In this document: piece by piece, positions 1 to 22,103 of the stretch
Numbering within the stretch: position 1 is the stretch's first letter
How the letters are laid out: the number at the start of each line of letters is the position of its first letter
Source of the DNA: a virus
IMG/VR virus record: IMGVR_UViG_3300021598_000867
Coordinates: 6,471-29,571 of that record
Reading direction: 5' to 3' (one strand)
DNA length: 23,101 nucleotides
Program-made: the position numbers and the translations under genes
Notes under the pieces: generated by a model
What the model saw: only the letters and a program-made list of their open reading frames with translations
Database searches by the model: none
Told to the model about the DNA's origin: nothing

Positions 1-3000
1 AAAGGAGTCATTAACAACGGTATTGAAAATGGCACGGTGACTTTCACTGTGCCCTATGATGCTCCAGATATATTGTATTATCAGGGATTGATCACCCCCG
101 ATGCCTTTGGTAGATTCGTCATAGCTGATATTGAATCTAATACCTATATAAATGTAGAAAAAGACATCATTGGCAAGAGTGAATATGTCAGTAGCAACAG
201 TATTACATTTACTAATGGAATGATTGTTGAATTTCAGGGTACCGTTGTCCCAGGAAAATATTCTTCAGAAACATGGTTAGTCGAGGGAGTTGGAAAAGCA
301 ATAACATTGACAAAATTTTCTGATCTAATAGTGCCAGTACTCACCGCTACAGTACCGGAAGTGTTGTTTGACAACGCAGGATTCGATACTGAACCTTTCG
401 ATGATGCCACAGCCTATCCCACTTTCAAAGACTATGTGACCATAGCTAGAGACAGCATAGACTCAAATCCTTGGTCACGATACAATCGTTGGTTTCACAG
501 AAATGTGTTAGAAACTGCTCATGCCTTGCGCGGCACAGATTTTCCCGCAGACGAAGCCACTAGAGCCAAACGTCCTATTATAGAATTTTCAGCAAATCTG
601 CAACTATTCAATCACGGTGCAGTAGCCAAACAGACTGTAGATTATCTCGACGATTACACCACTGATATACTATCTCGCATCGAAGGCAGCACAGGTTACA
701 ACATTGATGGGGAATTCTTATTTGATGGCGCTAGAATATTAGCCACAGCTGATACTGATAGATCAACAAACAACAAAATATATGAAGTAACATTTATCAG
801 GCACATCAACAGTACTCAGATACATCTTGTAGAAACCGAGGACAGTGACAGCGTATTGGATCAGGGAGTATTGGTACGTAGAGGTAATAAGAATGGCGGT
901 AAAATGTTTCACTTCAACGGTACTGACTGGGTGCCTAGTCAAACAAAGACCACAGTAAATCAGGCTCCGTTGTTCGATGCATTTGATTCGGCCGGTGTTA
1001 GTTTCGGAGACAGTGAAAAATACACCACCAGTACGTTTGCCGGTACAAAAATTGTCAGTTATAAACCAGGTTCAGGTAGAATAGATACTGAATTGGGATT
1101 CCGTCTCAGTTATCTGAATATTGACAATGTGGGAGATATAGAATTCAATTTTGACTGGGATACAGATGTTGCTGAATACACAGAGTTACGCATACCTAAG
1201 AATGTGAAAATATCAACCGGATACTTTAAATTTAATCCAAACTCAGTTTTTGACAACGGCTGGTTACTGGCAGGTACAGAATATATACAACCTATAATAG
1301 ACAGCCAACTGGTAGTTAGCGATACGGATACGCTGATATTCAACACCATAGATTGGTCCTTGTTATCCACTGATCCGATTATCAATGTTTATATCAATGG
1401 AGTAAAATACACAGGATCATACACAAGATCTGCGAATACATTTGTGTTCCCTTACACACTATCTGCCAAAGACACAGTGACTCTGAAAATTATCACGGAT
1501 CTGGAACCAGATCAGGGCTATTACGAAATACCTGCAGGACTAGAAAAAAATCCGTTAAATGCACAACTGACATCCTTCACACTAGGACAAGCAGTAGATC
1601 ACGTGATTTCAGCAGTGGAATTTGATTCCACACTCAGCGGAACTATCCCTGGAGTAAGCAATCTAAGAGATATTGCTGGATACGAAAAACACGCTAAACG
1701 ATTCCTTAAACATTCAGGAATCGCACCATTGGCTATAATGATGTTGTGTGACAAGACTCACAATGTGGTTAAGTCAATACAATACGCGAAAAAAGCCTAT
1801 ACAGACTTCCGAAATAATTTTGCCTCTAGAGCATTAGAAATAGCCTACAATGGCAGTGTTCCAAACTTTGTCGACGATATTATTATTAGTCTGACAAAAA
1901 ACAAAACAGCAGCAAGTCCTTTTGCAGACAGTGACATGTTAGGAGCAGGTGCCTATACAGCTATCACATATAGAGTAGAAGACATAGGAATAACAACATT
2001 CGCACTTAGTGAAAAGTTTGACCTAAACACTCTCAGCAAACGAGCAGTGTATGTGTATCTCAATGATAGTCAATTGTTGAATGCCAGAGATTACGTGTTT
2101 AATTCAACATTTGGTTTTGTGCAGCTCACTGTGACTCTCGAAGAAAACGACATAGTGGAAATACGTGAATATATTTCTACAGCTACTAGTTATGTCCCGC
2201 CGACTCCTACCAGTATGGGGCTGTATAAAAAATACACTCCTATGAAATTCATGGATGACACTTATCAGCAACCTCGTCTAGTTATACAGGGGCACGATGG
2301 CAGTATCACCGCCGCTTATGGTGATTTTAGAGATGACCTGATACTAGAACTTGAGTATCGCATCTACAACAACATCAAGCAGGAATACAATCCTGAAATC
2401 TTTGACATTGATTCTATTCTAGGCGGTTACTATGGTGTTGGACTTTATACCAAACCGCAATTAGATAATATTATAAATCAAGAATTTTTAAAATGGATAC
2501 AGAACACCAATATCAATTATACCCTGAACACGTATTTTGATAGTGAGAATAGTTTTACCTATACCTATTCTAGAATGTCAGATCCGACCAAGACACAGTC
2601 TTTGCCTGGTTATTGGAGAGGAGTTTATAAATGGTTCTATGACACAGACCGCCCACACCGCTGTCCGTGGGAGATGCTGGGATTTTCGCAAGAACCTGCT
2701 TGGTGGCAAACACAGTACGGTGCCGCCCCATACACACGTAACAACCTATTGCTCTGGGAAGATCTAGAGAATGGCCATATTAGACAAGGAAGCAGAGCCG
2801 GTCGCCATGACAGATACAAACGTCCGGGATTGATAAATCATATTCCTGTAGATAGCGATGGTGTGTTAATAAGCCCGTTAGACAGTAGTCTAGCACAGGA
2901 TTTTTCACTGATCAACAATCGAGGACCGTTCGTGTTAGGCGACATAAGCCCAGTAGAATATGCCTGGAGATCCAGTTCAGAATGGCCATTCGCAGTGATC

Positions 3001-6000
3001 ATGGCCATGTGTCTGATGAAACCCTTTGAATTTATCACAGATAACTTTGATCGGTCGAGGACCACTACAAATCTGTTGGGCCAGACAGTGAATAACGCAA
3101 CATCTCTGTTCAGCACACTTGATGAAATTGCTCCGGACACTTTATCAGATTCACACATAGGTTTATTGAAGTATATTGTGGCCTATGTGAAATCTCGAGG
3201 AATTCCACAGGACAGCATTTTAGAAAAAATAAACAGGTTAGATGTTGCATTAAGTTTTAGGATGAGCGGATTTGTAGATCAACAACAGCAAAAATTCTTG
3301 CTAGATTCTAAAAATCCCTCAGCTACCACCAGCAGTATATATGTACCTGCGGAAAATTATGATATTATCTTCAATGTAGGCGCTCCAGTGGCCACGGTGG
3401 CTATCAGTGGAGTGATATTTGAAAAGACCGAAGGAGGCTGGATCGCTACGGGGTACGACGACATACATCCTTATTTTGAATATCATCAGGCATTGGTTAG
3501 CCAGAGGGATCCGGTGATATCTGTAGGAGGAGTAAGCGAAACATTCTTAGATTGGACCACAGATAAAAATTACAACAATGGTACGATAGTCAGATATTCT
3601 AACGATTTCTATAGAGCACTGCGCACACACAACAGTGGAGATTCCTTCGATACCACAGTATGGCAAAAACTCAGCGACATTCCTAAAGTAGGCGCAGTGG
3701 AAGCACAACGCCGCCGCACATTTAACACATTATCAGTAAAACGTATTAGCTACGGCACACTGTTTACTACCGTACAACAGGTAGTAGATTTCCTATTGGG
3801 CTACGAAAGCTATCTAAAAAATCTAGGATTTAGGTTTGACAGATACGATCCTGAAAATCAGGTCAGCCAAGACTGGCTCAGCAGTGCCAAAGAATTCATG
3901 TTTTGGACCAAGCACAATTGGGAAAAAGGTTCGTTAATCGCTATAAGTCCTGTGGCACAAAAAGTAGATGTGGTGGTGCCTGTGGGGGTGGCAGATAACA
4001 TACTGGACGGGTTCTATGATTACCAGGTACTAAAAGGTGATGGAAAGCCTTTAGAACCAAGATTTTTAAATGTCAATCGTAGTTTCCAAAATATCACGGT
4101 CGAAACAACCAATACCACCGACGGAATATTTTTCTTGAAATTAAATTACGTTCTCAAAGAACATGTCACGGTATTTGATGATCGCACAGTGTTCAACGAC
4201 ATTATCTATGATAAAACCACAGGATATAGGCAGGGTCGAATCAAGGCACAGGGATTCCGCACAGTGGACTGGGATGGAGATTATACGAGTCCAGGATTTA
4301 TATTTGATAATGTTAATATACAAATTTGGCAGCCCTTCACAGATTATAGATTAGGTGATATAGTTTCATATAAAAGTTATAACTGGACCAGTCTAATAAA
4401 TCAGTTAGGGACAGAAATCTTTAACGACGCTTTCTGGACCAAATTAGATTCTACCCCACAAAAACAATTACTACCCAATTTTGATTATAAGATTAAACAA
4501 TTCGGAGATTATTTTGAAACATCATCGGAGGGAGTAAATCAAAGTCAGAGAGCACTGGCAAGACACACTATTGGGTATCAACAGAGAGATTATTTAAACA
4601 ATCTAGCCGAAGATCCAGTGAGCCAATTCCAACTGTATCAGGGATTTATACGCGAAAAAGGGTCGGCAAATGCTATAACAAAAATATTTGGCAAACTCAG
4701 TCGATCTGGATCCGACAGTTTGACCCTTAACGAAGAGTGGGCTTTCTTGGTAGGCCGTATAGGAGGTATTGACCAGGTTAGAGAAATAGAAATACAAATA
4801 GAAAAAAATAAACTTCAGTTAAATCCCCAGTTGTTTCTACTCCAGTCTTCACAAACAACCACAGTCACTGATCAAAATTATAGAATCACAGCTAATGATT
4901 TTACCATTAGTCCTACTCCATATACGACAAATATCACTCCAACTTCTTTTGAAACAGAACCAACATCAACAGCAGGTTATGTCTATGAAGATCAATATGA
5001 ACATGTATTAGCTACTCAAGCAGCATTAACCACGTTGAACATCGCCACAGTTAGAGAAAACGATCATATATGGATCACATTCAATAAAGATTCATGGACG
5101 GTATTGAGAGCTAATCAATCCGACATGCTGTTTGTGACCGGTCTGGAAAGACTCGATGATACCTTAGTGGTATTGACTTTTAATCGACCACACGCATTTT
5201 TAGTTGAAACTTATGTGGGCTTTAGGAATATCATAAACCTACAGGGTTTTTTCAAAATTGTTTCAGTTACTAATACCACTATTAGTATAGAAGTTGACGC
5301 TGATATTCGAGACCCAGAATTAGATGAAAGCACAATAGTCAATCCAATCATACTAACTAATAGCAGATTTGATGATTATCAGATTCTGAATCGAGGCACG
5401 TCTGCACTTTTACTTAATTCCTCTAGACTATTCATAGATAACAATGGCGACGATCGATGGGAAGTTATAGAAAAACAAAAACAATACACAGCTAATGCTA
5501 TCACAGATTATGCTACTACTAGCCCCGTGAATGCGGGTAAAAAAGTAATATACGACACAGTGAATAAACAGTTGATAGTCAGCATTCCTGGCTCTGGCAT
5601 AGTGACTGTGTATGCTGAAAGTTCTGAAGGATTAGTACTGAAACAAATAGTTTCACCTCCTACCGGATTCTTTTCCACTGCACTGGGATCTTTCGGCAAT
5701 GCCATGTCTTTGAGCCCAGATGGTAAGATGCTGATTATAGGTGCTGATGAAGCCAGTGGTGTAGCCAGCGCATTCCGAGGACCATGGGGAACAGACCAAT
5801 TATATCAGCCAGATGAAATTGTAATATACGGTGGCAGACTTTATCGAGCTAAAAATGCCAATACAGTGGTAGGCGACGGTAGCAGCGAACTAGCAGTGAA
5901 TACAGATGACTGGGAATTAGCCACGATCATACCTGCACTTGAATCTGGAGTTACTACAGGGTTGTATCAACAGGGCATGATAGCAATTTACACCTATGCT

Positions 6001-9000
6001 AACGGAAGATTTTCAAACACCACAACTTTCGTTAGTCCGAGACCTGCAGACAACGAAAAATTTGGCAGTGAAATAACTGTATCCGTAACCGGCAGATCGT
6101 ATTATATGGCAGTATCTGCTACAGGCGCCTATAATAACACCGGCCGCGTATATCTGTTCAAGTTCGATGGTACAGCATGGAGACATCTAGAAAATCCCAT
6201 GTACAAAGGCGTATATGATTTCCAAGAATCTTACAAAGCGGGGGAAATCGTATGGCAAGCTGCGCAAGACCCCATAACAGAAGCTGTGAGGGGAAATCTA
6301 TGGATGAATTTAGAAGATAGCACTTCAGACGGTAGCACAATTACTATTGAATCTCAAGGCTGGCTAAAGGTCAGCGACATTAGTACCAATTGTTCTTTGC
6401 CAACCACATTATCTGTAGAGGATGACGGCAGCACACTTGAATTCGCTATTACGGGTCTACTGAATGACACACAAATGGCTGAATTGGTCAAACAGGGTGA
6501 TAAATTTGGTTCCAGCATGGCCATGAATAGAGACGGCAGCATACTGGTAATAGGTGCTCCAGAAGCAGACGGTCAATATTTTACTAATTATCGAGGTTTG
6601 TGGAGAGGTGATGTAGAATATGTAGAAGGTGAAGTTGTGAGATTTAAAGATCCAACAGCTCCTGGCGATTCGTATCAATACTACCGCCTAGGTGATGCAT
6701 TTCTTGGACCAGATTCTACTTATAGAAGCTATAACGAAGATCCGTCAAATAGCGCCAACTGGCAGGTAGTAGGAGACAGCACCACCCAGTCTAGTGGCAA
6801 GGTATTTGTTTATGCTAGGACAGCAGGCGATGTTTATGAACTAAAACAAATGATCAATGCAGCATCTATCAGTTCATTCTCAGATATAGATTCCGGACTG
6901 GTGATCAGTACTGGGGATCAGTTTGGCTTTGCCATGGACATGGATCTTACCGGTAACACTTTGGTTGTTTCTAGTCCTAAATCAGATATCAACTATCAGG
7001 ACCAAGGCAGCGTGTATGTATTGGAATTAGATAATGCTACCACTGAGTATAGAGTAAAACAGCGTCTAGAAAGTTTCGAGACATATCCCAATGAGTATTT
7101 TGGCTTCGGAGTTTCGGTAAGTCCCGATGCAGCAAAAATTGCGGTGGGTGCAAAGAATGCTTCAAACAATATTCCTATCACCTTTGACATTCTACAGGAT
7201 ACCACATTTGATCTAAGATCAACTAGATTCAGCACTGCCCAAGGTTTCACCGGCGGAGTTTATATATTTGATAAGAAAGATCAAATATTTTTTATTACTG
7301 AAAAACTGCAGGAAGTCTTTTCTCCCGATGAAGCATTCGGCTCTAGCGTGGACTGTGTGGGATCTTATGTGGCTGTGGGCTCCCCATACTACAGATTACC
7401 GGTGCTACATGATGTAGGAGTAGTGGCTTTTGAAGGACCTTACATAGGCAATGCCAGATTGTTCAAAAAAGATTCCGAACAAAGTTCCTGGAATATCCTT
7501 AGCAGTCAGCAACCTGTGATAGACATAAGAAAAATCAGAAGCATAGAACTATACGACAATGTGCAGAACATTAAAATACAAGATCTTGATTACGTAGATG
7601 CTGCCAAAGGTAAAATACTTAACTCAGCAGAACAAGAAATAAAATTCAAGACTCCATACGATCCAGCAGTTTACACCATAGGCAATGATCGAGTGATTAC
7701 GGATCCTGCTATAGCCTGGTATGAATTTAATGTTGGAAAATTATGGTGGAATACTGCCGCTGCAAAATGGATTTATGCAGAACAAGGTGATGCTGCTTTT
7801 AGAACAGGCAACTGGAACCAACAGGTCGAGGGCAGCGATATTGGCGTATATGAATGGGTACAAAGTGTATTATTACCCAATGAGTGGGCAGCAGTGGCAG
7901 ACACCAACGAAGGCTTATCAGTAGGTATCAGCGGACAACCTCTATATCCTAATAACGATGCATATAGCGTAAAACAAACTTTCAATCCGATCACAGGGCA
8001 GGTACAAGAAACTATGTACTTTTATTGGGTGGAAAACAAAGCAGTGGTACCTGCTAATATGCCAGGTAGAACACGGTCAGCTGCAGAAGTAGCTGGAATT
8101 ATTGCTAATCCTGTAGGTACCGGCACTGCATTTATGGCATTAATAGCGGCTGATAAATTTGTTTTATACAATTTAAAATCGGTGATGTCATCAGACACCG
8201 CATTAATTAATATCAAGTATAGAAATGATTTAGAATCTCAAAGACCAATACATAGTGAATATCAATTACTAACAGAATCTGTTGCTGACAGTGTCCCCAC
8301 TGCGCAATTGGAAAATAAGTGGATTGATAGTCTAGTAGGTACTGATCTGCAGGGCAATAGAATTCCAGATACAAAATTGCCTGCTAAACAAAAATATGGT
8401 CTTAGTTTTCGACCTCGACAAAGTATGTTTGTTGATAGATTGACAGCACTAAAATTAGCTATAACAAACATTAATAATGTATTGACTACTCAGCCGTTCT
8501 CTGATCTTATAGATTTTACAAATTTAAATACCAAAGATACTGTGCCAGTAGATATATTGAATCTGTACGATGTTGAAGTAGATACAGAGATTGATTTGCA
8601 GACGGTAGGTACAGTACGAACTAAACAGGCTGTCTTACAAGCTAATTTAGTAGATGGGGAACTTGATACAATTGATATTGTTGAACCGGGATTCGGATAT
8701 AGAGTTGTTCCAACAGTAGAGATAGTAGGCGACGGTACGGGTGCAAAAGTTTCAGTAGTTCTAGATAACCAAGGAAGAATAGTCACTGCTACAGTACAGA
8801 GTAGAGGTAAAAGATATAGAACCTTGTCGATTAATGTACGGAACTTTTCAGTTTTAGTGATAAATGATTCTACTATAGACAATTTTTGGAGTATCTATGC
8901 CTGGGACGATGTTCGAAAGGTATTTTTCCGTAGCCAATCTCAGGCCTATGATACCACTAAGTATTGGAACACAGTGGATTGGTATCTCACAGGATACGAT

Positions 9001-12000
9001 AAAGATTCTCAGATAAGTCTAGAAATTCTAAGTGTTTTTCAAGAACAACAATATCAAATCTCACTAGGTGCACTAATAAGAGTCAAGGAATATGGTGCCG
9101 GAGGATGGGCAATTTTTGAAAAAATCAATGACATAGGCGCAACTTTTTCAGATAGATTTAAGTTAGTAGCGAGAGAAAACGGCACAATTCAGTTCAAAAC
9201 TTCATTGTATGATACTACCATAACAGGAATAGGATTCGATAACACACAGAGTTTTGATAATACCACCTATGATATTTCTAATTCAATTGAATTACGGAAT
9301 ATTTTACAAGCTGTGAAAAATGACATTTTTAGAACTGATTACGCTGTTGAATGGAACAAACTCTTTTTCTCTAGTGTACGATATGTATTATCTGAACAAC
9401 AGTATGTAGATTGGGTTTTTAAAACAAGTTTCCTAAACGCTACACATTCAGTAGGAAGTTTTGAACAAAAATTAAATTACAAAAATGATAATCTAGAAAG
9501 TTATCAACAATACATAGATGAAGTCAAACCGTTTAGAACCACGGTAAGAGAGTATGTGAGTCGTTACGACACTCCAGATCCCTATCAGTCAGCTATCGCA
9601 GATTTCGATCTGTCTCCTAATTATTCAGTACCAGACGGTAAAGTAGTTCCTATAACTTTCGAACGCACAGAATTGACACAGTATCCCTGGAAATGGTGGA
9701 CAGATAACAATGGATATGGAGTGACTGATATTCTGTTATACAACAGTGGAACAACATATACCACAGTTCCCAGAGTGATCATAGAAGGCAACGGATCAGG
9801 AGCCACGGCTCAGGCCTATATATCCAACGGTAGAGTATCTGGAATTAGGATTTTGACCGCAGGCAGCGGTTACACACAAAGACCCACAGTAACTTTAGTC
9901 GGAGGAAATTCTAATGATGGTACACAGGCCAAGGCCACAGCAGTTCTAGGCGATACCAAAGTTAGAACTTTTGACCTCACAGTGAAATTTGATCGTGTGA
10001 GTAAAACAGGCGACTATCAATCATACACACAAAATCAAACATTTACGGCAACAGGAACTACAGCAGTGTTTGAACTGGGATATGCTCCTACTAGAGACAA
10101 AACTAAAATTACTATATTAAAAAATAACCAACTAGTGTTAAGTAGTGAATATACACTCAATCTCTATTATTCATTTGCTGATAGTTATTTGTTACTGAGA
10201 GGAAAAATTATATTCAATATCGCACCGTTGTCGGGTGATTTCATTGTAGTTAATTATGAAAAAAATATTGAATTATTATCTGCAGTAAACAGAATAGATA
10301 GATTTTATAATCCTGTCAGCGGTATGATTGGCAAAGAACTTAATCAATTAATGACAGGGATAGATTTTGGCGGAGTTCAAATACAAGGAACGACATTTGA
10401 CGTTACTGGCGGCTGGGATGCACTGCCGTGGTTCACTGACAACTGGGACAGTGTTGAAACTAACAGCGATTATTACGTTGTCTGTGACGGAAGTACTAAC
10501 ACAGTAACTTTACCTTATACTCCTGCAGTGGGACAGGAGATAAACATCTATATTAAACCTGCAGGTGAAACGCTGACCAGAAGAATCGACGATCCTGCTT
10601 ATTCCGATCAAGTAGATTCATCCACCAGCGTAAATCCCAATGCAGAAATGCCTACATTCATAGGTAACGGTGTCAATAGGGTGATTGAAATTGGTAATTA
10701 TATTTCGACCCAAGACGGTGACACGTTGATTTTCCGTCCTATAGAAAGCGACGGATCTGTTACTATCACTGATGATAATCTACTAGACACAAAACTCAGT
10801 GGTGGTACTTTATCGGCTATAGACAGTGTGTATGTCACAGCCAAAGGCACCACAGCAGAAGAAATAGCGATCACCGGCGGCGGATTCACGGAACCTGACC
10901 ATGTACCGGCCCCAGAAGAAAATGTTCCCGGTCAGGTCATGGACAGCGTGTCTATTAAAGTGTTTCAATCAACACCTACAGGATCAGCGGCGCTGCAATC
11001 TAAAATTATCAAGGGTAATGGGATTATCACTAACTTTGACATCGGACAACGTGTCATTGAAAATAAATCGGTAATTGTATATGTTAATAAAGTTAAAAAA
11101 CACCTTGGCACAGATTATGTTTTAGACCTATTACAGAATACGGTAGAATTTAATACAGCTCCAATCAGCGATTCGGTAATAGAAATTATTTCGATAGGCA
11201 TCGGAGGAATAGGTATATTATCTTCAGATTTGTTTGTAGCTGATGGAGCCACTAATTTATTTCTCACAGACGCTAATTACGAAGACACAGCATTGATATT
11301 TGTTACAGTCGATGGTGAGTTTGTAGATATCGGGTTCAAAAACAGCACAGGAATTATCGATGTACCGGGAAAAACTTTGGTAGAATTTGGTGATATTCCT
11401 CCAGCATATGCGGTGATAAAAATAATCAGTCTTGAAGCCAGTCCTGATGTAGATAGCTCGGGTGTGGCTGTAGTGCAAGTCAATACTCAAACGGTATATT
11501 TTGAAGGCAGCACACGAAGTTTTGACCTTGAAGGATTTACAGAACTATCTAGAGGATCAGCACCTAATTCAATGTTGGTAGAAGTAGGCGGCCAATACCT
11601 TCGAGGCGCAGATACAATTTCTGTGGAATATAATGGAACCAATAATACGTTTATTCTAGGTCAAGATCCGTTGGAAGTTTCAGGAGCTATTCTTCCAAGT
11701 AATATAAGAGTATATGTAAACAATCAGTTAAAAACTTTCATTACAGATTATATCTACAACGGTGCTACAAAAGAATTAACGGTATCGCCCGCTGTACTTA
11801 CAGCGGGCGACGATATAAAGATCGAAAATAATCGAAGGGCAGAATATTCCATAGTTGAATCTAATCTCGTTATAGATCCCAGTGTCGAGATGATCACTAC
11901 CAACGAAACAGATAATGTAGAAATAAATGTTACATGGTTCAGCGAATATGCTTCATTGGATATGATATCTGATGAAATCGTTGGCGGCAAGGTACAGTAT

Positions 12001-12954
12001 CAATTACCCCGAGCTCCTATATCTGCTAGTTATGTTTGGGTATATAAAAATGGAATACGACTTACTCAGGATCAAGATTACTATGTGAGCATTCCTCGAA
12101 ATGTGGTTTATCTAGGTACAGACTCTACTTTTAGTGATCAGATCAAGATAGTATTGTTTTCATCAGACATTTATAGATCACCTAGCGCCTTTGAGATACA
12201 CAAAGATATGTTAAATGTCTATCACTATAATAGATTTGCCAGAGGAGAAGTATATCTAACCAGTGCTCTCAACTACTTTGATACTACTATTACAGTTACT
12301 GATAGCTCACAGTTAACGGATCCAATCGTATCGAGAAATGTTCCAGGAGTTATAAGTGTTAATGGAGAACGTATTGAATACATGAGTAAAATTGGTAATG
12401 TATTATCACAACTACGCAGAGGATCACAAGGCACAGCTATTGCAGAAACTTATGCTGAAGGAACTGTTGTGGTTGATGTAGGATACGAAGAAATACTACC
12501 TTATAATGAAACACAAAATAGAACAGATTTCGTCAGCGACGGTAGTTCATTATTAATAGGACCGTTAGATATTGTGCCTGTACAAGGCACGAGAAATGTG
12601 TGGTATAGAGATACTATTCCCAGCACTTATGGCGCCTGTGATCAACTCGAAGTGTTCGCAGGCGGCCGTAGATTGCGAAAAGATCCGATAGATATTTGGG
12701 TTGAAGATAACGGATCTTACAGTCCCTCGGCAGATGAAACGTTAGAAGCAGAATTTGCAGTAGATGGCATTACGGCTTATATTAGACTTACTGAGCCCAT
12801 AGTAGCAGGAACCAGAATCACAATTATCAAAAGAACAGGAAGAATTTGGTATGACAGAGGAGAAACTACGGCATCTAGCGGTACAACGCTTTTAGAAAAT
12901 TCAACAGCTATTGCCCGTTTCATAGCGGAGAAGACCACCAGTTTGCCTCGATAA
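1..12954 (+). CDS. Giant multidomain virion (tail/fibre-like) protein, 5' end missing
   Basis: The frame is open from base 1 with no stop upstream of the GTG at 37, so the start lies outside the window and at least 4317 codons are present. Residues below count from the GTG. Visible in order: a VPYDAPDILYYQG motif near residue 5; a conserved block with NPWSRYNRWFHR (about 144-155); an aromatic block with PWEML, PAWW and AAPYTRNN (869-950); Trp/Tyr modules resembling CBM5/12 at 1173-1215 and 1431-1474; an FG-GAP-type propeller (about 1860-2480) with three more such modules; a KLWW block at 2568; GxGY repeats near 2886 and 3236-3290; fibre-type beta-hairpins with a DY turn (for example 3678-3718, 3890-3931, 4000-4045); an LRRG domain (4067-4150). 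There is no signal peptide or membrane segment in the part seen. The late-operon position before the fibre genes fits a baseplate or fibre component. The coding assignment is certain; the exact role is inferred. Confidence 0.93.
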   Translation, partial: KGVINNGIENGTVTFTVPYDAPDILYYQGLITPDAFGRFVIADIESNTYINVEKDIIGKSEYVSSNSITFTNGMIVEFQGTVVPGKYSSETWLVEGVGKAITLTKFSDLIVPVLTATVPEVLFDNAGFDTEPFDDATAYPTFKDYVTIARDSIDSNPWSRYNRWFHRNVLETAHALRGTDFPADEATRAKRPIIEFSANLQLFNHGAVAKQTVDYLDDYTTDILSRIEGSTGYNIDGEFLFDGARILATADTDRSTNNKIYEVTFIRHINSTQIHLVETEDSDSVLDQGVLVRRGNKNGGKMFHFNGTDWVPSQTKTTVNQAPLFDAFDSAGVSFGDSEKYTTSTFAGTKIVSYKPGSGRIDTELGFRLSYLNIDNVGDIEFNFDWDTDVAEYTELRIPKNVKISTGYFKFNPNSVFDNGWLLAGTEYIQPIIDSQLVVSDTDTLIFNTIDWSLLSTDPIINVYINGVKYTGSYTRSANTFVFPYTLSAKDTVTLKIITDLEPDQGYYEIPAGLEKNPLNAQLTSFTLGQAVDHVISAVEFDSTLSGTIPGVSNLRDIAGYEKHAKRFLKHSGIAPLAIMMLCDKTHNVVKSIQYAKKAYTDFRNNFASRALEIAYNGSVPNFVDDIIISLTKNKTAASPFADSDMLGAGAYTAITYRVEDIGITTFALSEKFDLNTLSKRAVYVYLNDSQLLNARDYVFNSTFGFVQLTVTLEENDIVEIREYISTATSYVPPTPTSMGLYKKYTPMKFMDDTYQQPRLVIQGHDGSITAAYGDFRDDLILELEYRIYNNIKQEYNPEIFDIDSILGGYYGVGLYTKPQLDNIINQEFLKWIQNTNINYTLNTYFDSENSFTYTYSRMSDPTKTQSLPGYWRGVYKWFYDTDRPHRCPWEMLGFSQEPAWWQTQYGAAPYTRNNLLLWEDLENGHIRQGSRAGRHDRYKRPGLINHIPVDSDGVLISPLDSSLAQDFSLINNRGPFVLGDISPVEYAWRSSSEWPFAVIMAMCLMKPFEFITDNFDRSRTTTNLLGQTVNNATSLFSTLDEIAPDTLSDSHIGLLKYIVAYVKSRGIPQDSILEKINRLDVALSFRMSGFVDQQQQKFLLDSKNPSATTSSIYVPAENYDIIFNVGAPVATVAISGVIFEKTEGGWIATGYDDIHPYFEYHQALVSQRDPVISVGGVSETFLDWTTDKNYNNGTIVRYSNDFYRALRTHNSGDSFDTTVWQKLSDIPKVGAVEAQRRRTFNTLSVKRISYGTLFTTVQQVVDFLLGYESYLKNLGFRFDRYDPENQVSQDWLSSAKEFMFWTKHNWEKGSLIAISPVAQKVDVVVPVGVADNILDGFYDYQVLKGDGKPLEPRFLNVNRSFQNITVETTNTTDGIFFLKLNYVLKEHVTVFDDRTVFNDIIYDKTTGYRQGRIKAQGFRTVDWDGDYTSPGFIFDNVNIQIWQPFTDYRLGDIVSYKSYNWTSLINQLGTEIFNDAFWTKLDSTPQKQLLPNFDYKIKQFGDYFETSSEGVNQSQRALARHTIGYQQRDYLNNLAEDPVSQFQLYQGFIREKGSANAITKIFGKLSRSGSDSLTLNEEWAFLVGRIGGIDQVREIEIQIEKNKLQLNPQLFLLQSSQTTTVTDQNYRITANDFTISPTPYTTNITPTSFETEPTSTAGYVYEDQYEHVLATQAALTTLNIATVRENDHIWITFNKDSWTVLRANQSDMLFVTGLERLDDTLVVLTFNRPHAFLVETYVGFRNIINLQGFFKIVSVTNTTISIEVDADIRDPELDESTIVNPIILTNSRFDDYQILNRGTSALLLNSSRLFIDNNGDDRWEVIEKQKQYTANAITDYATTSPVNAGKKVIYDTVNKQLIVSIPGSGIVTVYAESSEGLVLKQIVSPPTGFFSTALGSFGNAMSLSPDGKMLIIGADEASGVASAFRGPWGTDQLYQPDEIVIYGGRLYRAKNANTVVGDGSSELAVNTDDWELATIIPALESGVTTGLYQQGMIAIYTYANGRFSNTTTFVSPRPADNEKFGSEITVSVTGRSYYMAVSATGAYNNTGRVYLFKFDGTAWRHLENPMYKGVYDFQESYKAGEIVWQAAQDPITEAVRGNLWMNLEDSTSDGSTITIESQGWLKVSDISTNCSLPTTLSVEDDGSTLEFAITGLLNDTQMAELVKQGDKFGSSMAMNRDGSILVIGAPEADGQYFTNYRGLWRGDVEYVEGEVVRFKDPTAPGDSYQYYRLGDAFLGPDSTYRSYNEDPSNSANWQVVGDSTTQSSGKVFVYARTAGDVYELKQMINAASISSFSDIDSGLVISTGDQFGFAMDMDLTGNTLVVSSPKSDINYQDQGSVYVLELDNATTEYRVKQRLESFETYPNEYFGFGVSVSPDAAKIAVGAKNASNNIPITFDILQDTTFDLRSTRFSTAQGFTGGVYIFDKKDQIFFITEKLQEVFSPDEAFGSSVDCVGSYVAVGSPYYRLPVLHDVGVVAFEGPYIGNARLFKKDSEQSSWNILSSQQPVIDIRKIRSIELYDNVQNIKIQDLDYVDAAKGKILNSAEQEIKFKTPYDPAVYTIGNDRVITDPAIAWYEFNVGKLWWNTAAAKWIYAEQGDAAFRTGNWNQQVEGSDIGVYEWVQSVLLPNEWAAVADTNEGLSVGISGQPLYPNNDAYSVKQTFNPITGQVQETMYFYWVENKAVVPANMPGRTRSAAEVAGIIANPVGTGTAFMALIAADKFVLYNLKSVMSSDTALINIKYRNDLESQRPIHSEYQLLTESVADSVPTAQLENKWIDSLVGTDLQGNRIPDTKLPAKQKYGLSFRPRQSMFVDRLTALKLAITNINNVLTTQPFSDLIDFTNLNTKDTVPVDILNLYDVEVDTEIDLQTVGTVRTKQAVLQANLVDGELDTIDIVEPGFGYRVVPTVEIVGDGTGAKVSVVLDNQGRIVTATVQSRGKRYRTLSINVRNFSVLVINDSTIDNFWSIYAWDDVRKVFFRSQSQAYDTTKYWNTVDWYLTGYDKDSQISLEILSVFQEQQYQISLGALIRVKEYGAGGWAIFEKINDIGATFSDRFKLVARENGTIQFKTSLYDTTITGIGFDNTQSFDNTTYDISNSIELRNILQAVKNDIFRTDYAVEWNKLFFSSVRYVLSEQQYVDWVFKTSFLNATHSVGSFEQKLNYKNDNLESYQQYIDEVKPFRTTVREYVSRYDTPDPYQSAIADFDLSPNYSVPDGKVVPITFERTELTQYPWKWWTDNNGYGVTDILLYNSGTTYTTVPRVIIEGNGSGATAQAYISNGRVSGIRILTAGSGYTQRPTVTLVGGNSNDGTQAKATAVLGDTKVRTFDLTVKFDRVSKTGDYQSYTQNQTFTATGTTAVFELGYAPTRDKTKITILKNNQLVLSSEYTLNLYYSFADSYLLLRGKIIFNIAPLSGDFIVVNYEKNIELLSAVNRIDRFYNPVSGMIGKELNQLMTGIDFGGVQIQGTTFDVTGGWDALPWFTDNWDSVETNSDYYVVCDGSTNTVTLPYTPAVGQEINIYIKPAGETLTRRIDDPAYSDQVDSSTSVNPNAEMPTFIGNGVNRVIEIGNYISTQDGDTLIFRPIESDGSVTITDDNLLDTKLSGGTLSAIDSVYVTAKGTTAEEIAITGGGFTEPDHVPAPEENVPGQVMDSVSIKVFQSTPTGSAALQSKIIKGNGIITNFDIGQRVIENKSVIVYVNKVKKHLGTDYVLDLLQNTVEFNTAPISDSVIEIISIGIGGIGILSSDLFVADGATNLFLTDANYEDTALIFVTVDGEFVDIGFKNSTGIIDVPGKTLVEFGDIPPAYAVIKIISLEASPDVDSSGVAVVQVNTQTVYFEGSTRSFDLEGFTELSRGSAPNSMLVEVGGQYLRGADTISVEYNGTNNTFILGQDPLEVSGAILPSNIRVYVNNQLKTFITDYIYNGATKELTVSPAVLTAGDDIKIENNRRAEYSIVESNLVIDPSVEMITTNETDNVEINVTWFSEYASLDMISDEIVGGKVQYQLPRAPISASYVWVYKNGIRLTQDQDYYVSIPRNVVYLGTDSTFSDQIKIVLFSSDIYRSPSAFEIHKDMLNVYHYNRFARGEVYLTSALNYFDTTITVTDSSQLTDPIVSRNVPGVISVNGERIEYMSKIGNVLSQLRRGSQGTAIAETYAEGTVVVDVGYEEILPYNETQNRTDFVSDGSSLLIGPLDIVPVQGTRNVWYRDTIPSTYGACDQLEVFAGGRRLRKDPIDIWVEDNGSYSPSADETLEAEFAVDGITAYIRLTEPIVAGTRITIIKRTGRIWYDRGETTASSGTTLLENSTAIARFIAEKTTSLPR
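3553..3684 (+). other. CBM5/12-like module 1 in the giant protein
   Basis: Residues 1173-1215 (counted from the GTG at 37) run W, then Y-NNG-IVRY, then FYRAL, and end with VWQKL. This W / Y..G.IV.Y / Y.A / W..L spacing is the usual look of small chitin-binding-type modules of the CBM5/12 group. Glycan binding is inferred from the pattern only. Confidence 0.5.
4327..4458 (+). other. CBM5/12-like module 2 in the giant protein
   Basis: Residues 1431-1474 show WQPFTDYRLGDIVSYKSYNW followed by FWTKL, the same aromatic frame as module 1. Of the five modules this is the closest to the classical Y..GDIV.Y pattern. It lies about 215 residues after module 1, with ordinary non-repetitive sequence between. 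Confidence 0.55.
5500..7485 (+). other. FG-GAP-type beta-propeller region with inserted Trp modules
   Basis: Six repeats begin with an FG pair at residues 1886, 2009, 2157, 2296, 2355 and 2434 (FGNAMSLSPDG, FGSEITVSVTG, FGSSMAMNRDG, FGFAMDMDLTG, FGFGVSVSPDA, FGSSVDCVGS). Most continue with a hydrophobic strand ending in GA or SP (IIGADEASG, VIGAPEADG, VVSSPKSD, AVGSPYY) and later a strand such as GKVFVYA or GSVYVLE. This is the FG-GAP_2 style of blade rather than the calcium-binding integrin style, because the DxDxDG loop is absent. A degenerate blade before the first FG (VTVYAESSEG) would give about seven blades. CBM5/12-like modules lie at 1917-1966, about 2056-2115 and 2189-2248, each between the early and late strands of a blade or between neighbouring blades. 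Confidence 0.7.
8650..9905 (+). repeat. Two GxGY-type protein repeat domains
   Basis: Around residue 2886 the protein reads EPGFGYRVVPTVEIVGDGTG with a following RIVTATVQSRGKRY. Around 3236-3290 it reads SGTTYTTVPRVIIEGNGSGA, then AGSGYTQRPTVTLVGG. The unit is G-x-G-Y, a few residues, P-x-V, then a Gly-rich turn, repeated as a beta solenoid-like pattern common in phage structural proteins. About 350 residues separate the two copies, and the DNA is not repeated closely. Function unknown; a structural or adhesive role is inferred. Confidence 0.6.
11785..11810. repeat. Perfect 12-bp inverted repeat inside the giant gene
   Basis: TCGCCCGCTGTA is followed by two bases (CT) and then its exact reverse complement TACAGCGGGCGA. 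The arms are GC-rich in an AT-rich gene and lie in codons for VSPAVLTAGDD. There is no run of T on either side, so it is not a normal intrinsic terminator. As RNA it would fold into a stable stem with a four-base or larger loop. Confidence 0.85.
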
Positions 12955-13633: not shown

Positions 13634-15745
13634 ATGCCATATTCAGTTAATTTTACAGATAAAGAAAATAAAACACCCATCACAGTGTTTGATAATACTT
13701 CTAGTACAGATACGAGTCTAGCGTTTCCGGGTAGAAATGTTACGGGGTATGGCAAGATTATTGCAGAAAACTTTTTGGCTTTACTAGAAAATTTTGCTTC
13801 CGCTGATGAACCAATAAACCCTGTAGAAGGGCAGCTTTGGTATAATAGTACTGACGGAGTTCTTCAAATATGGGATAATACTGCATGGAAAGCAGCTTCA
13901 GGCATACAAAAAGGTGTAAGCGAGCCATCGGTAGAGTCTAGTAAGGTAGGAGAATTATGGGTAGACACTACTAATCAACAGCTAAGAATTTTCACAGGCT
14001 CACGTTGGATATTGGTAGGACCATCGGAAAGTGCTGTTGACGGATTACGATACGGTCCTGTGGTAGAAAAGATCGCAGATTCCGATAATATTGATAGATT
14101 TATTCTTGTTTTCTACATTGCAGATATACCAGTTATTATTTTTAGCAAGGACAGCTTTACTCCTAAGACCATTATATCTGGTTTCGATGTTGTACGTTCT
14201 GGAATTAACATATCTAACCCAAGTACGGCGCCTGAAATAGCAGAATTTGTTGGGGGGTTTGAACCAATATTATTCGGAACCGCCACTCGGGCTAATGCAT
14301 TGAGTGTTGGCGGAGTTGAAGTAGAATCGGGAAAGTTCCTAAGATCTAACACTATTAATACTACTGATTTTGCATTTAATGTAAGAAACAATAACGGGGT
14401 TACGGTCGGTGTCGATGGCACATTCAATATTGGTACTACATCCACAGCAGCAAAAATCTACAACAGTGCGGCTGGTAGTTCTATCGATATTCAAACCAAT
14501 CGGAATGGCATTCCGTCAACAATTTTAAAAGTAGTGGACAACAAAGTAGGTATAAATCAGGCAAGTCCTAACCAGGCCCTAGACATTGACGGCAGCCTTA
14601 CTTTAACTGGTTCAATCATAATCACAAACAATACTGCCAGCACTAATCTAAACAATGGAAGTTTAAGGACTGCCGGCGGTGCTGCTATTTCTAAAAATCT
14701 CATAGTAGGCGACGGAGTCGATATCACAGGTACATCACAGGTCAATAATCTACAACCAAAGACTACCGAACTGTATGATCTAGGTACTAATCTTAAACGT
14801 TGGAAGACAATCAGAGCCAAAACAATCATAGCAGACGATATACAAGGTATTTTGTCTGGAAATATCAGCGGTAATGCCAACACCGCTACCAGTCTTACTA
14901 ATATCACCAGTTTTCAATTGACTGGCGATGTGATAAGTCCAGCTGTGCAGTTTGACGGGCAGACAGGAAGTTACACCAAAATATTCAATACATCGTTGAC
15001 TGCTAATATCATTGTAAGTAAAGATCAACCCTTTCCGAATGTATCTAAGCCTACTGATTTTGTGCTTACATATAGGGCCAGTGAAGCGGCATTAGCATCA
15101 TCGGGTTTATTAAAACAGACTAGAGACACATTCGTAGGAGATCTAGGTATTCCAATCGGCGGAATCATTCCTTATGCCGGCGCAACCGCACCATACGGAT
15201 TTTTATTTTGCGACGGATCGGAAGTTGAAAGAACAAAATTTTCAGCCCTATATGACGTCATAGGTACAACATATAATGGTATAGCAGTTTTAATAGGAGT
15301 GAATACTTTTAGACTGCCGGATCTTAGAGGAAGATTTGCCTTAGGCAAGGACAATATGGACAACGCCGGAACAGTGCCAATCGTCACAGGCGGATTTGTA
15401 GATGCCGGTGGAGGTACGACAGGACGTGTGCCCGACGTAAAAGCCACTACCCTAGGAGGCGATGCCGGTCAGAGTTCGGCAACACTCACACTAGCAAATT
15501 TACCAGAGCATAGTCATACATTAAGTTCTGGTGCACAAGATTATTCGGCTGTAGCTGTGACCACAACTATCGATCCTGCAGCGACAACAGGACTAGGACC
15601 AACTGCTCCTGGCCAAGCACAGTATCTAAAAGATTCAGGCGGAATAAAAAAACCAGCTCTGACTACGTTGAGTACACCAATAGGTATTATGAATCCATTT
15701 CTAACAATAAATTATATTATTAGATCTGGACCACCGTTATTTTAA
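13634..15745 (+). CDS. Tail fibre protein with C-terminal phage tail-collar domain
   Basis: This 703-aa fibre has the N-terminal module shared by the four fibres: GRNVTGYGK, then LLENFASADEP and GQLWYNS (about residues 33-80), followed by a second GELWVD/GSRWILVGP unit and a KDSFTPK strand near 172-178. The middle contains fibre-like text such as LDIDGSLTLTGS and a LGTNLKRWKTIRAK segment. The tip is a phage tail-collar domain at about 505-575: IGGIIPYAGATAPYGFLFCDG, lacking its last residue here for brevity, then FRLPDLRGRFALG. LPEHSHTL near 625 matches the HxH that binds metal in T4 gp12-like tips. The C-terminal NPFLTINYIIRSG is also typical of collar proteins. GAGG eight bases before the ATG supports the start. 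It most likely forms a trimeric receptor-binding fibre. Confidence 0.93.
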   Translation: MPYSVNFTDKENKTPITVFDNTSSTDTSLAFPGRNVTGYGKIIAENFLALLENFASADEPINPVEGQLWYNSTDGVLQIWDNTAWKAASGIQKGVSEPSVESSKVGELWVDTTNQQLRIFTGSRWILVGPSESAVDGLRYGPVVEKIADSDNIDRFILVFYIADIPVIIFSKDSFTPKTIISGFDVVRSGINISNPSTAPEIAEFVGGFEPILFGTATRANALSVGGVEVESGKFLRSNTINTTDFAFNVRNNNGVTVGVDGTFNIGTTSTAAKIYNSAAGSSIDIQTNRNGIPSTILKVVDNKVGINQASPNQALDIDGSLTLTGSIIITNNTASTNLNNGSLRTAGGAAISKNLIVGDGVDITGTSQVNNLQPKTTELYDLGTNLKRWKTIRAKTIIADDIQGILSGNISGNANTATSLTNITSFQLTGDVISPAVQFDGQTGSYTKIFNTSLTANIIVSKDQPFPNVSKPTDFVLTYRASEAALASSGLLKQTRDTFVGDLGIPIGGIIPYAGATAPYGFLFCDGSEVERTKFSALYDVIGTTYNGIAVLIGVNTFRLPDLRGRFALGKDNMDNAGTVPIVTGGFVDAGGGTTGRVPDVKATTLGGDAGQSSATLTLANLPEHSHTLSSGAQDYSAVAVTTTIDPAATTGLGPTAPGQAQYLKDSGGIKKPALTTLSTPIGIMNPFLTINYIIRSGPPLF

Positions 15746-15758
15746 TTAGAGAACAAGA

Positions 15759-17609
15759 ATGGCATATCAAATAAACAAAACTGACGGAACTATAGTAGCC
15801 ACAGTGGCCGATGGGCAGATAGACACATTATCCACTGACCTTACTTTGATAGGCAAAAATTACAGTGGATTTGGTGAAGCATTTAATGAAAATCTAGTGA
15901 AACTTCTAGAAAACTTTGCCAGCACCACACGACCGCTACACCCACTCAAGGGTCAGGTTTGGTTTGATAGTGCAGAAAACAAACTTAAGGTGTATAATGG
16001 ATCTGTTTTCATTCCAGTGAGTTCTGCCACTGTTTCTAGCACACAGCCTGTTACATTAAGCATAGGTGACCTGTGGTTCGATGATGTAGGTGCGCAGTTA
16101 TATTTCTTCGATGGAACACAGCCCATATTGATCGGACCTGCATATTCCACAGCACAAGGTAAAAGCGGATTAGAAGTTGACAGCATTTTAGACACCCTGA
16201 ATCAAACTAGAGTTGTAACATATCTTTATAACAACGGTATATTACTAGGAATTTTTGCCAAAGACAGTTTTACACCTAAAATAGCTATCATCGGATTCAG
16301 CGGTAATATAGAACCTGGGTTTAACGCAGGGACATTAGCTAACATAAAATTCCGTATAACCTGCACCAACTCCGAACAGTTAGGGGGTGCGGTAGCTACC
16401 ACATATGCCCGAAGAGACACATCAAATACTTTTAATGGACAGGTATCTGTTGGTGTAGATGCCGGTATTGTGATAGGATCAGGCAATCAGATGAATCTCT
16501 TGGTGAGCTCGGGAGATATAGAAGTATCCAATTTCGCCAGCGACAAAGATCTATTCCTAAAGGTTAGAAAAGGTCTCGATCAAGAAACTGCCATAGCAAT
16601 AGATTCCAGTTCAAGAATCGTCGATATATATTCAGGAAAAATTGATAGCACAATGAATGTTGGTGGCAGTTTAGTGGTAGCAGGTGACCTCACCGTAGAA
16701 GGAACAACAACCACTATCAATACTTCTAATGTTACCATTGAAGATAAAACACTAACATTAGCCAATGTGGCAGCACCCAGTGAAACCACGGCTACTGGTG
16801 CTGGTATCATAATTAGATCAACCGGTGCTGATTCATCTTCCTACGACAAAGAAATAGTGTATAGGTCCACTAGCGAGGGGCCACCTCCTACTGGAGTTTT
16901 TGACGTCAGCGAAGATTTAAATCTGGCAGTAGGTAAACAGTTACAGATAGGTGGAGTCAAGGTCATAGATGGCAATAGCCTTGGAAGTGCAATCACCAGT
17001 ATTCCGGGTGTTACAGCATTTGGTACGCAAAACGTAGTCAACGTTGGTCCTGGAATACCGCCAGTGACGCAGATGCGATTAGAAAATCATAGGATCAGCA
17101 CAGTATCAACAAATTTTGATATTGAACTCGAACCAGACGGCACAGGAAACGTTGCGTTGATAGGCTCGCCGAGAATCACAGGCATGCAGGATCCTGTTAG
17201 CCAACAGGATGCTGCGACCAAAGAATATGTGGACAATACCATAGAATCTCGGCCATTGATATTCAGCATGGATTTATCTGATGGTAAATCTAACACATAC
17301 ATTATTAATAATGTATTAAATAATCTTGCACCTGTAGCGGAATTTAGAAGTGGCACTTATGCAAGGATATTGTGTACTCTGATAAATCCTTCCAGCACCT
17401 CATTAGCCATAAATGCATTACCTCCCAGTATCAGCACGAATCCTTTCCTCACTGATCTATCTGGCAGTAGTTCGTTGGCAGTGACTAGTATTTCATTTCC
17501 TACAGCAACAATCGCAGCAGCAAGTGTTTCTACTACTAGAATTATTAAAACCTTTCAAATTGTGTCAGGTGCATGGACCTGGCAGACAGATTCTACTTTA
17601 CCACCATAA
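15759..17609 (+). CDS. Tail fibre protein, paralogue 2, with unidentified tip
   Basis: This 616-aa protein starts MAYQINKTDGTIVATV and carries the common module: GKNYSGFGEAFNEN, LLENFAST, GQVWFDS, then GDLWFDDVG and the KDSFTPK strand near 168-174. The middle holds a GTTTTINTSNVTIEDKTL segment (about 314-335), a form common in fibres of T4-like marine phages. QDAATKEYVDNT near 483 is a standard phage-fibre hinge. About 115 residues after it form a tip that I do not recognise, including NPFLTDLSGSSSLAV and a terminal GAWTWQTDSTLPP. It has no collar or chaperone motif. AGAG seven bases upstream of the ATG supports the start, and 13 bases separate it from the previous gene. Receptor-binding fibre is the likely role; the target is unknown. 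Confidence 0.92.
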   Translation: MAYQINKTDGTIVATVADGQIDTLSTDLTLIGKNYSGFGEAFNENLVKLLENFASTTRPLHPLKGQVWFDSAENKLKVYNGSVFIPVSSATVSSTQPVTLSIGDLWFDDVGAQLYFFDGTQPILIGPAYSTAQGKSGLEVDSILDTLNQTRVVTYLYNNGILLGIFAKDSFTPKIAIIGFSGNIEPGFNAGTLANIKFRITCTNSEQLGGAVATTYARRDTSNTFNGQVSVGVDAGIVIGSGNQMNLLVSSGDIEVSNFASDKDLFLKVRKGLDQETAIAIDSSSRIVDIYSGKIDSTMNVGGSLVVAGDLTVEGTTTTINTSNVTIEDKTLTLANVAAPSETTATGAGIIIRSTGADSSSYDKEIVYRSTSEGPPPTGVFDVSEDLNLAVGKQLQIGGVKVIDGNSLGSAITSIPGVTAFGTQNVVNVGPGIPPVTQMRLENHRISTVSTNFDIELEPDGTGNVALIGSPRITGMQDPVSQQDAATKEYVDNTIESRPLIFSMDLSDGKSNTYIINNVLNNLAPVAEFRSGTYARILCTLINPSSTSLAINALPPSISTNPFLTDLSGSSSLAVTSISFPTATIAAASVSTTRIIKTFQIVSGAWTWQTDSTLPP

Positions 17610-20303: not shown

Positions 20304-22103
20304 ATGGCATATCAAGTAGATAAATTTAACGGTGCTTTTTTTGTATCTGTAGAAGACGGGACCATAGACACCACCTCAGATTTAAGATTTGTAGGTAAAA
20401 ACTATGCGGGATACGGCGAAGTTCAGAATGAAAACTTTCTACATCTTTTAGAGAATTTTTCTAACACTACTGCTCCTCCCAAGGTAATCACAGGGCAAAT
20501 CTGGTTCGATAGTGCTAATAAAAAATTAAAATTCTATGATGGTTCTCGATTTAAACTAGCAGGCGGTGCAGAAGTCAGCACCACTGCGCCCAGCGGTTTA
20601 AGCACTGGTGACTTTTGGTGGGATTCTGCTGCCAAACAATTGTATGCATGGACAGGCACAGAGTTTGCACTTATTGGACCAGAAGCCAGTCCCGATCTAG
20701 GATCGTCTATAGTGTCTGCAGCAGTGGTTAAAGGAACGGTCAGCACAGCGGTGGGTCCACATACTATACTTAAAATAATAGCAGATGACAAGGTCATAGG
20801 AATTTTTAGTAAAACATCATTTACCCTCGACAACGCACAGAATACAATCGATGACTTCACGGTCATAAAGAAAGGGTTTACCTTGGCCAAATCTCAGTCT
20901 GGAGTAAGTACTGATGATTATGTGATGTGGGGCACAGCAAATAATGCAGCTCGCCTTGGTGGTTTTGCTGCAGATCAATACCTCAAACAAGGTGAAAATT
21001 CATTCACTGGTGAAGTACAATTTTATGATCCAGGCCTAACTGTAGGTGATGGTAACGATTTTAGACTGCGTGTTGAAGGTGGTGACGAAGTGATTGTTGA
21101 AAATCGACTAGGAAACCCTATAACATTCCGCATTACTGTAACTGAAACTACCGATGAACGAGACATCGCGGTGATTACCAGCACAGGAGTTGTGCCTGGC
21201 AATGACAATGCCTACTCATTAGGTGCCAACGGAGGTCGTTGGAGCAACGTTTACGCTACCACACATACTGGCAATCTTGTAGGAAATGTCACAGGAAATT
21301 CTCTAGGAGTTCATACAGGCAATGTGTTGGCCTCAGATAACACAGTAATGATAAATGCCGCAACTAAACAGATTGGATTTGCGGGAGCCAATATAGTAGG
21401 AACCTTAACCGGATCAGTTACAGGTACAGCTTCTGCAGCCACTAATGCCAGTAAGCTAAATGATCTAGATCCTAGTGCTACGGTACCAGGTACTGCAATA
21501 GCTACTATACCTGTAAGAAATACTTCAGGAAATATACTGGCTAACCAATTTGTAGGTATCGCAGATAAGACTGACAAGACATTCATTGATAAAACTGATG
21601 CTGTAGTAGATCCTGCATGGAATGATGCAACTACCAGTACCAAGTACAGAACCGCTAGACTTACTGCTACCGCATATAGCATTGCGGCTAGAGACTCCAG
21701 CGGTAATATCTCAGCGGTATTATTCCAAGGAACCGCTACATCAGCACGGTATGCAGATCTCGCAGAGAAATATCTAGCTGACACAGAATACGAAGTTGGC
21801 ACTGTAATGGTCATAGGGGGTCCAGCCGAAGTTACCGCATCTAGCTACGGCGAACTAGCCATAGGAGTGATCAGTGAAAATCCAGCATACATGATGAACA
21901 GTGAGCTAGAAGGCGGGGTTTACGTGGCACTTAAGGGTCGAGTACCAATCAAGGTCAAAGGATCAGTACGTAAAGGAGATAGATTAGTTGCCGGTGATCA
22001 AGGTTGCGCACAGGTAGCGCAAGATAGATTAGATGTATTTGCTGTAGCCATGGAAACCAGTGACAACGAAGATGTAAAATTAATACAATCAGTGGTGCTG
22101 TAA
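20304..22103 (+). CDS. Tail fibre protein, paralogue 4, with YADLAEKY C-terminal domain
   Basis: This 599-aa protein starts MAYQVDKFNGAFFVSVEDGT and carries the shared module (GKNYAGYGEVQNENF, LLENFSNT, GQIWFDS, GDFWWDS, ALIGPEA). The middle has LGANGGRWSNVYATT and strings of TGN/GNV/GS typical of fibre shafts, then two IPVRNTSGNILANQF and AARDSSGNISAVLF units. From residue 483 to the end is a distinct domain: SARYADLAEKY, GTVMVIGGPAEV, GVISENPAYMMNSE, ALKGRVPIKVKG, VRKGDRLVAGD. It resembles C-terminal domains in fibres of T4-like marine phages and, more loosely, the peptidase G2 type self-cleaving chaperone domain of Bacillus phages. GGAG seven bases before the ATG supports the start. No nucleophile for cleavage can be assigned by eye. 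Confidence 0.92.
   Translation: MAYQVDKFNGAFFVSVEDGTIDTTSDLRFVGKNYAGYGEVQNENFLHLLENFSNTTAPPKVITGQIWFDSANKKLKFYDGSRFKLAGGAEVSTTAPSGLSTGDFWWDSAAKQLYAWTGTEFALIGPEASPDLGSSIVSAAVVKGTVSTAVGPHTILKIIADDKVIGIFSKTSFTLDNAQNTIDDFTVIKKGFTLAKSQSGVSTDDYVMWGTANNAARLGGFAADQYLKQGENSFTGEVQFYDPGLTVGDGNDFRLRVEGGDEVIVENRLGNPITFRITVTETTDERDIAVITSTGVVPGNDNAYSLGANGGRWSNVYATTHTGNLVGNVTGNSLGVHTGNVLASDNTVMINAATKQIGFAGANIVGTLTGSVTGTASAATNASKLNDLDPSATVPGTAIATIPVRNTSGNILANQFVGIADKTDKTFIDKTDAVVDPAWNDATTSTKYRTARLTATAYSIAARDSSGNISAVLFQGTATSARYADLAEKYLADTEYEVGTVMVIGGPAEVTASSYGELAIGVISENPAYMMNSELEGGVYVALKGRVPIKVKGSVRKGDRLVAGDQGCAQVAQDRLDVFAVAMETSDNEDVKLIQSVVL

Follow-up and report, generated by a model that had tools for sequence, protein, structure and literature searches.

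The integrin alpha propeller has seven four-stranded blades, with FG in strand 1 and a GAP-like sequence in strand 2, and several of its blades carry DxDxDG calcium loops (PMC3192720). A further folded domain, the I domain, is accommodated in one of its inter-blade loops, between blades 2 and 3 (PMC12422189). In carbohydrate-binding module (CBM) family 5, a conserved Y-W pair contacts chitin (PMC8449059). Here we analyse a giant phage protein in which a propeller of the integrin type is predicted to carry three small CBM5/12-like modules, M1, M2 and M3, in its loops. The protein is encoded in a 23,101-nucleotide (nt) stretch of DNA (the window) that lies inside a 29.6-kb virus record (IMGVR_UViG_3300021598_000867, positions 6,471 to 29,571). 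Its open reading frame (ORF; 1..12954) is open at the 5' end and yields 4,317 amino acids (aa), the 3' part of a giant, putative virion protein whose complete relatives measure about 4,600–4,800 aa. Residue numbers below are in the window frame of this truncated ORF, and the coordinates given for its parts are on the + strand.

The phage propeller resembles that of integrin alpha in its seven four-stranded blades (predicted here), in having a folded domain in an inter-blade loop and in its top fold matches in the PDB. It differs in that DxDxDG is missing, FG is present in six of seven blades, identity is about 10%, and three small modules take the place of one vWFA domain, in a phage virion context. 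The modules share with CBM5/12 (PF02839; 1ED7, CjCBM5) the form of a small beta module, the pattern Y...(G)D.V.y...[YW].a...W and a profile match, but they lack the chitin-contacting aromatic pair, have a DGST motif in M1 and M2, and are located in propeller loops. Viral FG-GAP entries in BFVD (Atu_ph07 'hemagglutinin', A0A2L0UZX4; uncultured Caudovirales, A0A6J5S3H5) have the propeller fold, with a template modelling (TM) score to target of 0.56–0.70; unlike the giant protein they are only 393–473 aa long, and the Atu_ph07 'hemagglutinin' is separate from gp180 of the same phage, a relative of the giant protein discussed below. In the literature we found no account of a phage virion protein with an FG-GAP propeller, or of an integrin-alpha-type propeller joined to a phage baseplate protein. 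The parts are known; their nested arrangement is new.

A seven-bladed FG-GAP propeller

The AlphaFold2 model, a fold search and Pfam together place a seven-bladed FG-GAP propeller with inserted modules at residues 1808–2503 (5422..7509). When the propeller region was searched in isolation, Pfam FG-GAP_2 (PF14312) matched it in five stretches (E=2.6e-19, 69.6 bits against a cut-off of 23). FG pairs stand at residues 1898, 2021, 2169, 2308, 2367 and 2446, and at each of these six sites both residues are retained in at least 46 of 48 relatives. AlphaFold2, run with the 48 aligned relatives, returned seven four-stranded blades (predicted TM score, pTM, 0.72; mean predicted local distance difference test score, pLDDT, 77), with FG in strand 1 of every blade except the one we call A. 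The preliminary description, made from the sequence alone, had proposed a propeller with six FG blades and called for a structure prediction; the six FG blades and the propeller fold were borne out, and the blade count rose to seven.

Blade A (model residues 1849–1884; 5533..5670) has four strands in the model, and profile-profile comparison found no sequence similarity between it and the other blades. Blade B (1898–2011; 5686..6036) is split by M1 and blade D (2169–2285; 6496..6861) by M3, both supported by the model and by FG conservation. Between them, blade C (2021–2062; 6049..6192) is defined by the model, with its 3-4 loop at nt 6166–6168 (residue 2056). The last three blades, for which model and profile comparison agree, are E (2308–2357; 6910..7080), which is uninterrupted, F (2367–2436; 7090..7320), with an extra hairpin in its 2-3 loop, and the final blade G (2446–2502; 7327..7509). 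Integrin alpha heads were the top PDB folds found by Foldseek (9t5z, E=2.1e-11, TM to target 0.48; others up to 0.60). As modelled, the propeller is integrin-like in fold yet without one metazoan-type feature, the DxDxDG calcium motif (none in the window, 0 or 1 in 48 relatives).

CBM5/12-like modules in the propeller loops

M1 (residues 1922–1976; 5764..5928) occupies the 2-3 loop of blade B, M2 (2065–2126; 6193..6378) follows strand 4 of blade C and precedes strand 1 of blade D, and M3 (2194–2259; 6580..6777) occupies the 2-3 loop of blade D. Profile-profile comparison (hhalign) gave probabilities of 99% for M1-M2, 97% for M1-M3 and 94% for M2-M3, and at most about 3% for modules against blades or control segments. 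As judged from these profiles, the three modules are homologous to each other and unrelated to the blades. Module pLDDT was mostly 55–88, below that of the blades. Their model positions in loops and the profile comparison rule out that the modules are blade strands, and the loop-insertion layout that had been proposed from the sequence is upheld; the placement of each module between strands of one blade applies to M1 and M3, with slightly shifted limits, and fails for M2, which lies between blades. The modules would crowd one face of the propeller, because strand directions alternate and 2-3 and 4-1 loops therefore share one side. By this topology, the modules would not be spread around the propeller, as had been envisaged, and the chitin-contacting pair is absent from them in all relatives compared (see below).

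For counts of deletions, insertions and aromatic pairs, 51 non-redundant relatives were used; none had lost a module. In a module tree, M1 and M3 each formed their own group, with weak resolution from a short alignment. In four close pairs, the ratio of nonsynonymous to synonymous substitution rates (dN/dS) was 0.026–0.057 for modules and 0.047–0.057 for blades. A role of the modules as fast-evolving receptor tips is unsupported, their dN/dS being as low as that of the blades.

A combined profile of M1–M3 and two further modules of the protein, U1 and U2, matched the CBM5/12 structures of chitin deacetylase DA1 (2e-7) and the chitinase A1 ChBD (1e-5), as well as the Anabaena injection-system protein All3316 (8e-7), and matched more weakly solved phage or pyocin tail fibres or spikes (8fqc, 9rkv, 25vf). 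Pfam CBM_5_12 gave 16 bits for M1, no match for M2 or M3 alone and 25.8 bits for U1 against a cut-off of 26.2; in relatives L045, L021 and L116 the whole cassette clears the cut-off, at 30.8–33.8 bits. A PDB search with M1 alone returned designed TIM barrels as best matches, which we ascribe to chance. The core Tyr and Trp residues (Y1935, Y2078, Y2207, W1971, W2121, W2254) are invariant in 48/48 relatives and appear from the alignment to be the fold core, matching Y265 and W299 of CjCBM5 (PMC8449059). A Y-W or W-W chitin-contacting pair was found in 0/51 relatives at M1, M2 and M3. The kinship with CBM5/12 suggested in the preliminary description is thus sound at family level, by the combined profile and by the Pfam cut-off in relatives, and does not extend to the chitin-contacting pair. 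Because that pair is absent and the modules are as constrained as the blades, glycan binding is unproven, though possible. A fragment of roughly 700 residues would make it directly testable.

Insertion of the propeller between conserved scaffold regions

The propeller is flanked by a left scaffold (residues 730–1640; 2188..4920) and a right scaffold (2504–3210; 7510..9630), both conserved in the jumbo phages PA5oct, Atu_ph07, SCTP-2, Phosso, CBB, RaK2, XaC1 and Vibrio 2.275.O. Scaffold alignments to these eight isolates stop at 1611–1647 and mostly resume at 2486–2518 (in XaC1 at 2427, by a weak extension). The interval between the scaffolds is about 1,500 aa in Atu_ph07 and Phosso, where GxGY-type repeats come first, about 500 aa in SCTP-2 and about 200–300 aa in PA5oct, CBB, RaK2 and Vibrio 2.275.O. 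By alignment, then, the propeller has been inserted between scaffold regions that are kept in jumbo phages without a propeller. Ahead of it lies a beta-rich pre-propeller domain (1656–1800; 4966..5400; pLDDT mostly 79–93) that outpaces propeller and scaffold in close relatives (dN/dS 0.08–0.17, identity 42–86%). Its AGYV / IW..W.V element (1656–1705) is common to some isolates, which narrows the clade-specific piece approximately to the propeller. Candidate propeller remnants in PA5oct and SCTP-2 were discarded, being weak matches chiefly to the pre-propeller domain.

The scaffold itself has taken CBM5/12-like modules. U1, in a scaffold loop at about 1181–1226 (3541..3678), is present in PA5oct, Atu_ph07, Phosso and SCTP-2 and absent from CBB, RaK2, XaC1 and Vibrio 2.275.O. 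U2, in a loop at about 1440–1488 (4318..4464; Pfam 18.2 bits, below cut-off), is limited to the window clade and is a clean insertion relative to all eight aligned isolates.

The giant protein matches phrog_10938 (virion structural protein; E=7.6e-269), most strongly over residues 485–1435, and by this scaffold homology belongs to PHROG 10938. Members of that family in PA5oct (gp355), Atu_ph07 (gp180), RaK2 and CBB share the flanking scaffold and the place after a gp6-like gene, but are without the propeller. In relatives of the window protein the gene directly upstream encodes a gp6-like baseplate wedge protein (phrog_10646, phrog_219), and in PA5oct, Atu_ph07, Phosso, CBB, RaK2 and XaC1, too, the giant gene follows a baseplate wedge gene. 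This is the position of T4 gene 7, directly after gene 6; the giant protein is more than four times longer than T4 gp7. The annotation of PA5oct gp355 records its detection in the virion by electrospray ionization tandem mass spectrometry (ESI-MS/MS). Rather than being a free tail fibre, the giant protein is part of a baseplate-wedge locus. A single profile search of IMG/VR recovered 348 stretches encoding relatives. GTDB genomes held zero relatives, so a host link is absent, and a propeller match was absent from 50,697 cultured-phage records searched by tblastn.

Nested insertions in relatives

In the 51 non-redundant cassettes, residue 2056, in the 3-4 loop of blade C, is an insertion hotspot; it is empty in the window clade. 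Relatives L032, L036 and L153–L155 carry 152–154 aa there, matching the baseplate wedge family phrog_708 and reading as cupredoxin-like by motif. Inserts of 191 aa in L157 and L193 are unrelated to the cupredoxin-like one, and those of 111–119 aa in L163 and L166 are unrelated to the others. In L165 the insert reaches 309 aa: the cupredoxin-like domain is split, and the inner piece matches PHROGs 38233 and 21413, which by sequence comparison makes three insertion levels below the scaffold. Inserts of 54–82 aa (L178, L208, L210–L212, L214–L216), assigned to the hotspot, contain the start of M2 where printed and therefore lie within M2; L166 also has a 61-aa insert inside M1. Pfam has no family for the domains inserted at the hotspot. 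In an AlphaFold2 model of the L045 version, the blade strands that flank the hotspot insert were retained. The hotspot suggests an insertion-tolerant loop, and the series found in or beside it (none, about 50–80, 110–120, 150, 190 and 309 aa) is usable for studying how giant phage proteins grow.

Competing explanations

The explanation that we favour, with moderate confidence, is an insertion-built baseplate-wedge protein that carries a propeller, with modules on one face, as a platform at the baseplate periphery. In one clade, an integrin-alpha-type propeller would have entered a giant, peripheral wedge protein in the baseplate of a jumbo-type contractile phage, between two conserved scaffold regions. 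Three homologous modules of CBM5/12 fold would have been fixed in one-face loops before the clade diversified, and the opposite-face loop (3-4 of blade C) and the module loops would have taken further domains, producing nested insertions. The propeller would be rigid. The contact made by its module face would be conserved, with other baseplate or fibre proteins or a common surface polymer as likelier partners than a variable receptor; its opposite face would be exposed and take exchangeable domains. Such a propeller probably serves for docking or adhesion, as a platform that tolerates insertions. For this explanation speak the FG-GAP_2 match and the predicted fold, with integrin alpha heads as top matches; the mutual homology and loop positions of the modules and their combined-profile matches to CBM5/12 structures; the gp6-like wedge gene upstream, with the same gene order in PA5oct; the scaffold alignments that stop at the propeller; the hotspot with its nested inserts; the low dN/dS of the modules; and the separate groups of M1 and M3 in the tree. 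Several points weigh against it. Virion position in the window clade is deduced from synteny and from PA5oct; homology to T4 gp7 was sought with scaffold and N-terminal profiles and was undetectable (hhalign probability at most 0.2%). The assignment of faces is based solely on strand order, from which all three modules would lie on one face. The order of module insertion is likewise deduced, as no module-free member of the propeller family was found, and the cupredoxin-like insert of L045 was poorly modelled (pLDDT about 28–62). Strong module conservation is also compatible with binding of a conserved glycan.

An alternative takes the modules as true carbohydrate-binding modules and the propeller as a multivalent adhesin for glycans of the host surface, of particles or of mucilage in water. 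The relatives that clear the CBM5/12 cut-off, the profile matches to chitinase and chitin-deacetylase modules and the related modules in solved tail fibres or spikes speak for it; we nevertheless consider it rather unlikely, as the chitin-contacting pair is missing at each module in 51/51 relatives, the invariant Tyr and Trp appear to be fold core, and dN/dS carries no diversification signal. We are equally doubtful that the propeller and its modules have a purely structural role, as a spacer or as an adaptor for docking fibres, in which the modules would bind the putative fibre proteins encoded downstream. Such a role would account for modules that are fixed and conserved, for the similar module in Anabaena All3316, which is Cis13 of an injection system (7b5h; PMC8894136), and for the four fibre-like genes with a common N-terminal region that follow, but PA5oct, RaK2 and CBB manage without the propeller. 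That the propeller was over-read, its FG motifs belonging to another beta-repeat and its modules being ordinary irregular loops, is very improbable: blade A is unrecognizable by sequence and the model is only moderately confident in the module regions, against which stand the Pfam match, the pTM with four strands per blade, the integrin heads as top PDB matches and the lack of relationship between modules and blades. Extending the platform explanation beyond this locus, we suggest tentatively, and with more doubt than the explanation itself, that jumbo-phage baseplate proteins evolve by recursive loop insertion, from scaffold to propeller to modules or domains to further domains, with a fixed contact face and an opposite, exchangeable display face. 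If true, recursive insertion with a two-faced propeller would give phages a counterpart to the I-domain solution of integrins.

Other features of the locus

In SCTP-2 (L131, ORF 11994–23417, alignment columns 561–660), an extra stretch in an otherwise unused scaffold loop resembles two tandem CBM5/12-like modules. For the insert of SCTP-2, a resemblance to LamG was considered by eye and was unsupported by Pfam. The gene preceding the giant gene of Vibrio phage 2.275.O (L134:7868–11731) is annotated as containing CBM family 5/12, and modules of this family may thus also have been put into the neighbouring wedge protein.

A GxGY-type beta repeat appears twice in the giant protein, at residues 2872–2950 and 3238–3311 (nt 8614–8850 and 9712–9933). 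It is found in phrog_438 and phrog_460 as well, and the Atu_ph07 and Phosso proteins contain many copies of it. The C-terminal third of the giant protein (nt ~10140–12930) consists of apparent tandem beta domains with a repeated 'vyvn....l..Dy......i.f..aP..g..i.i' pattern and has a weak Phage_T7_tail match, which is stronger in relative L046.

Downstream lie the four fibre-like genes (13634–15745, 15759–17609, 17630–19912 and 20304–22103). Their products have a common N-terminal region, 'LLENFA...P..G.iWf', and differ in the rest, which suggests paralogous fibres that share an adaptor. The C-terminal part of the 20304–22103 product matches the C-termini of PHROG tail proteins phrog_22593 and phrog_19602; this end may be self-cleaving or chaperone-like.

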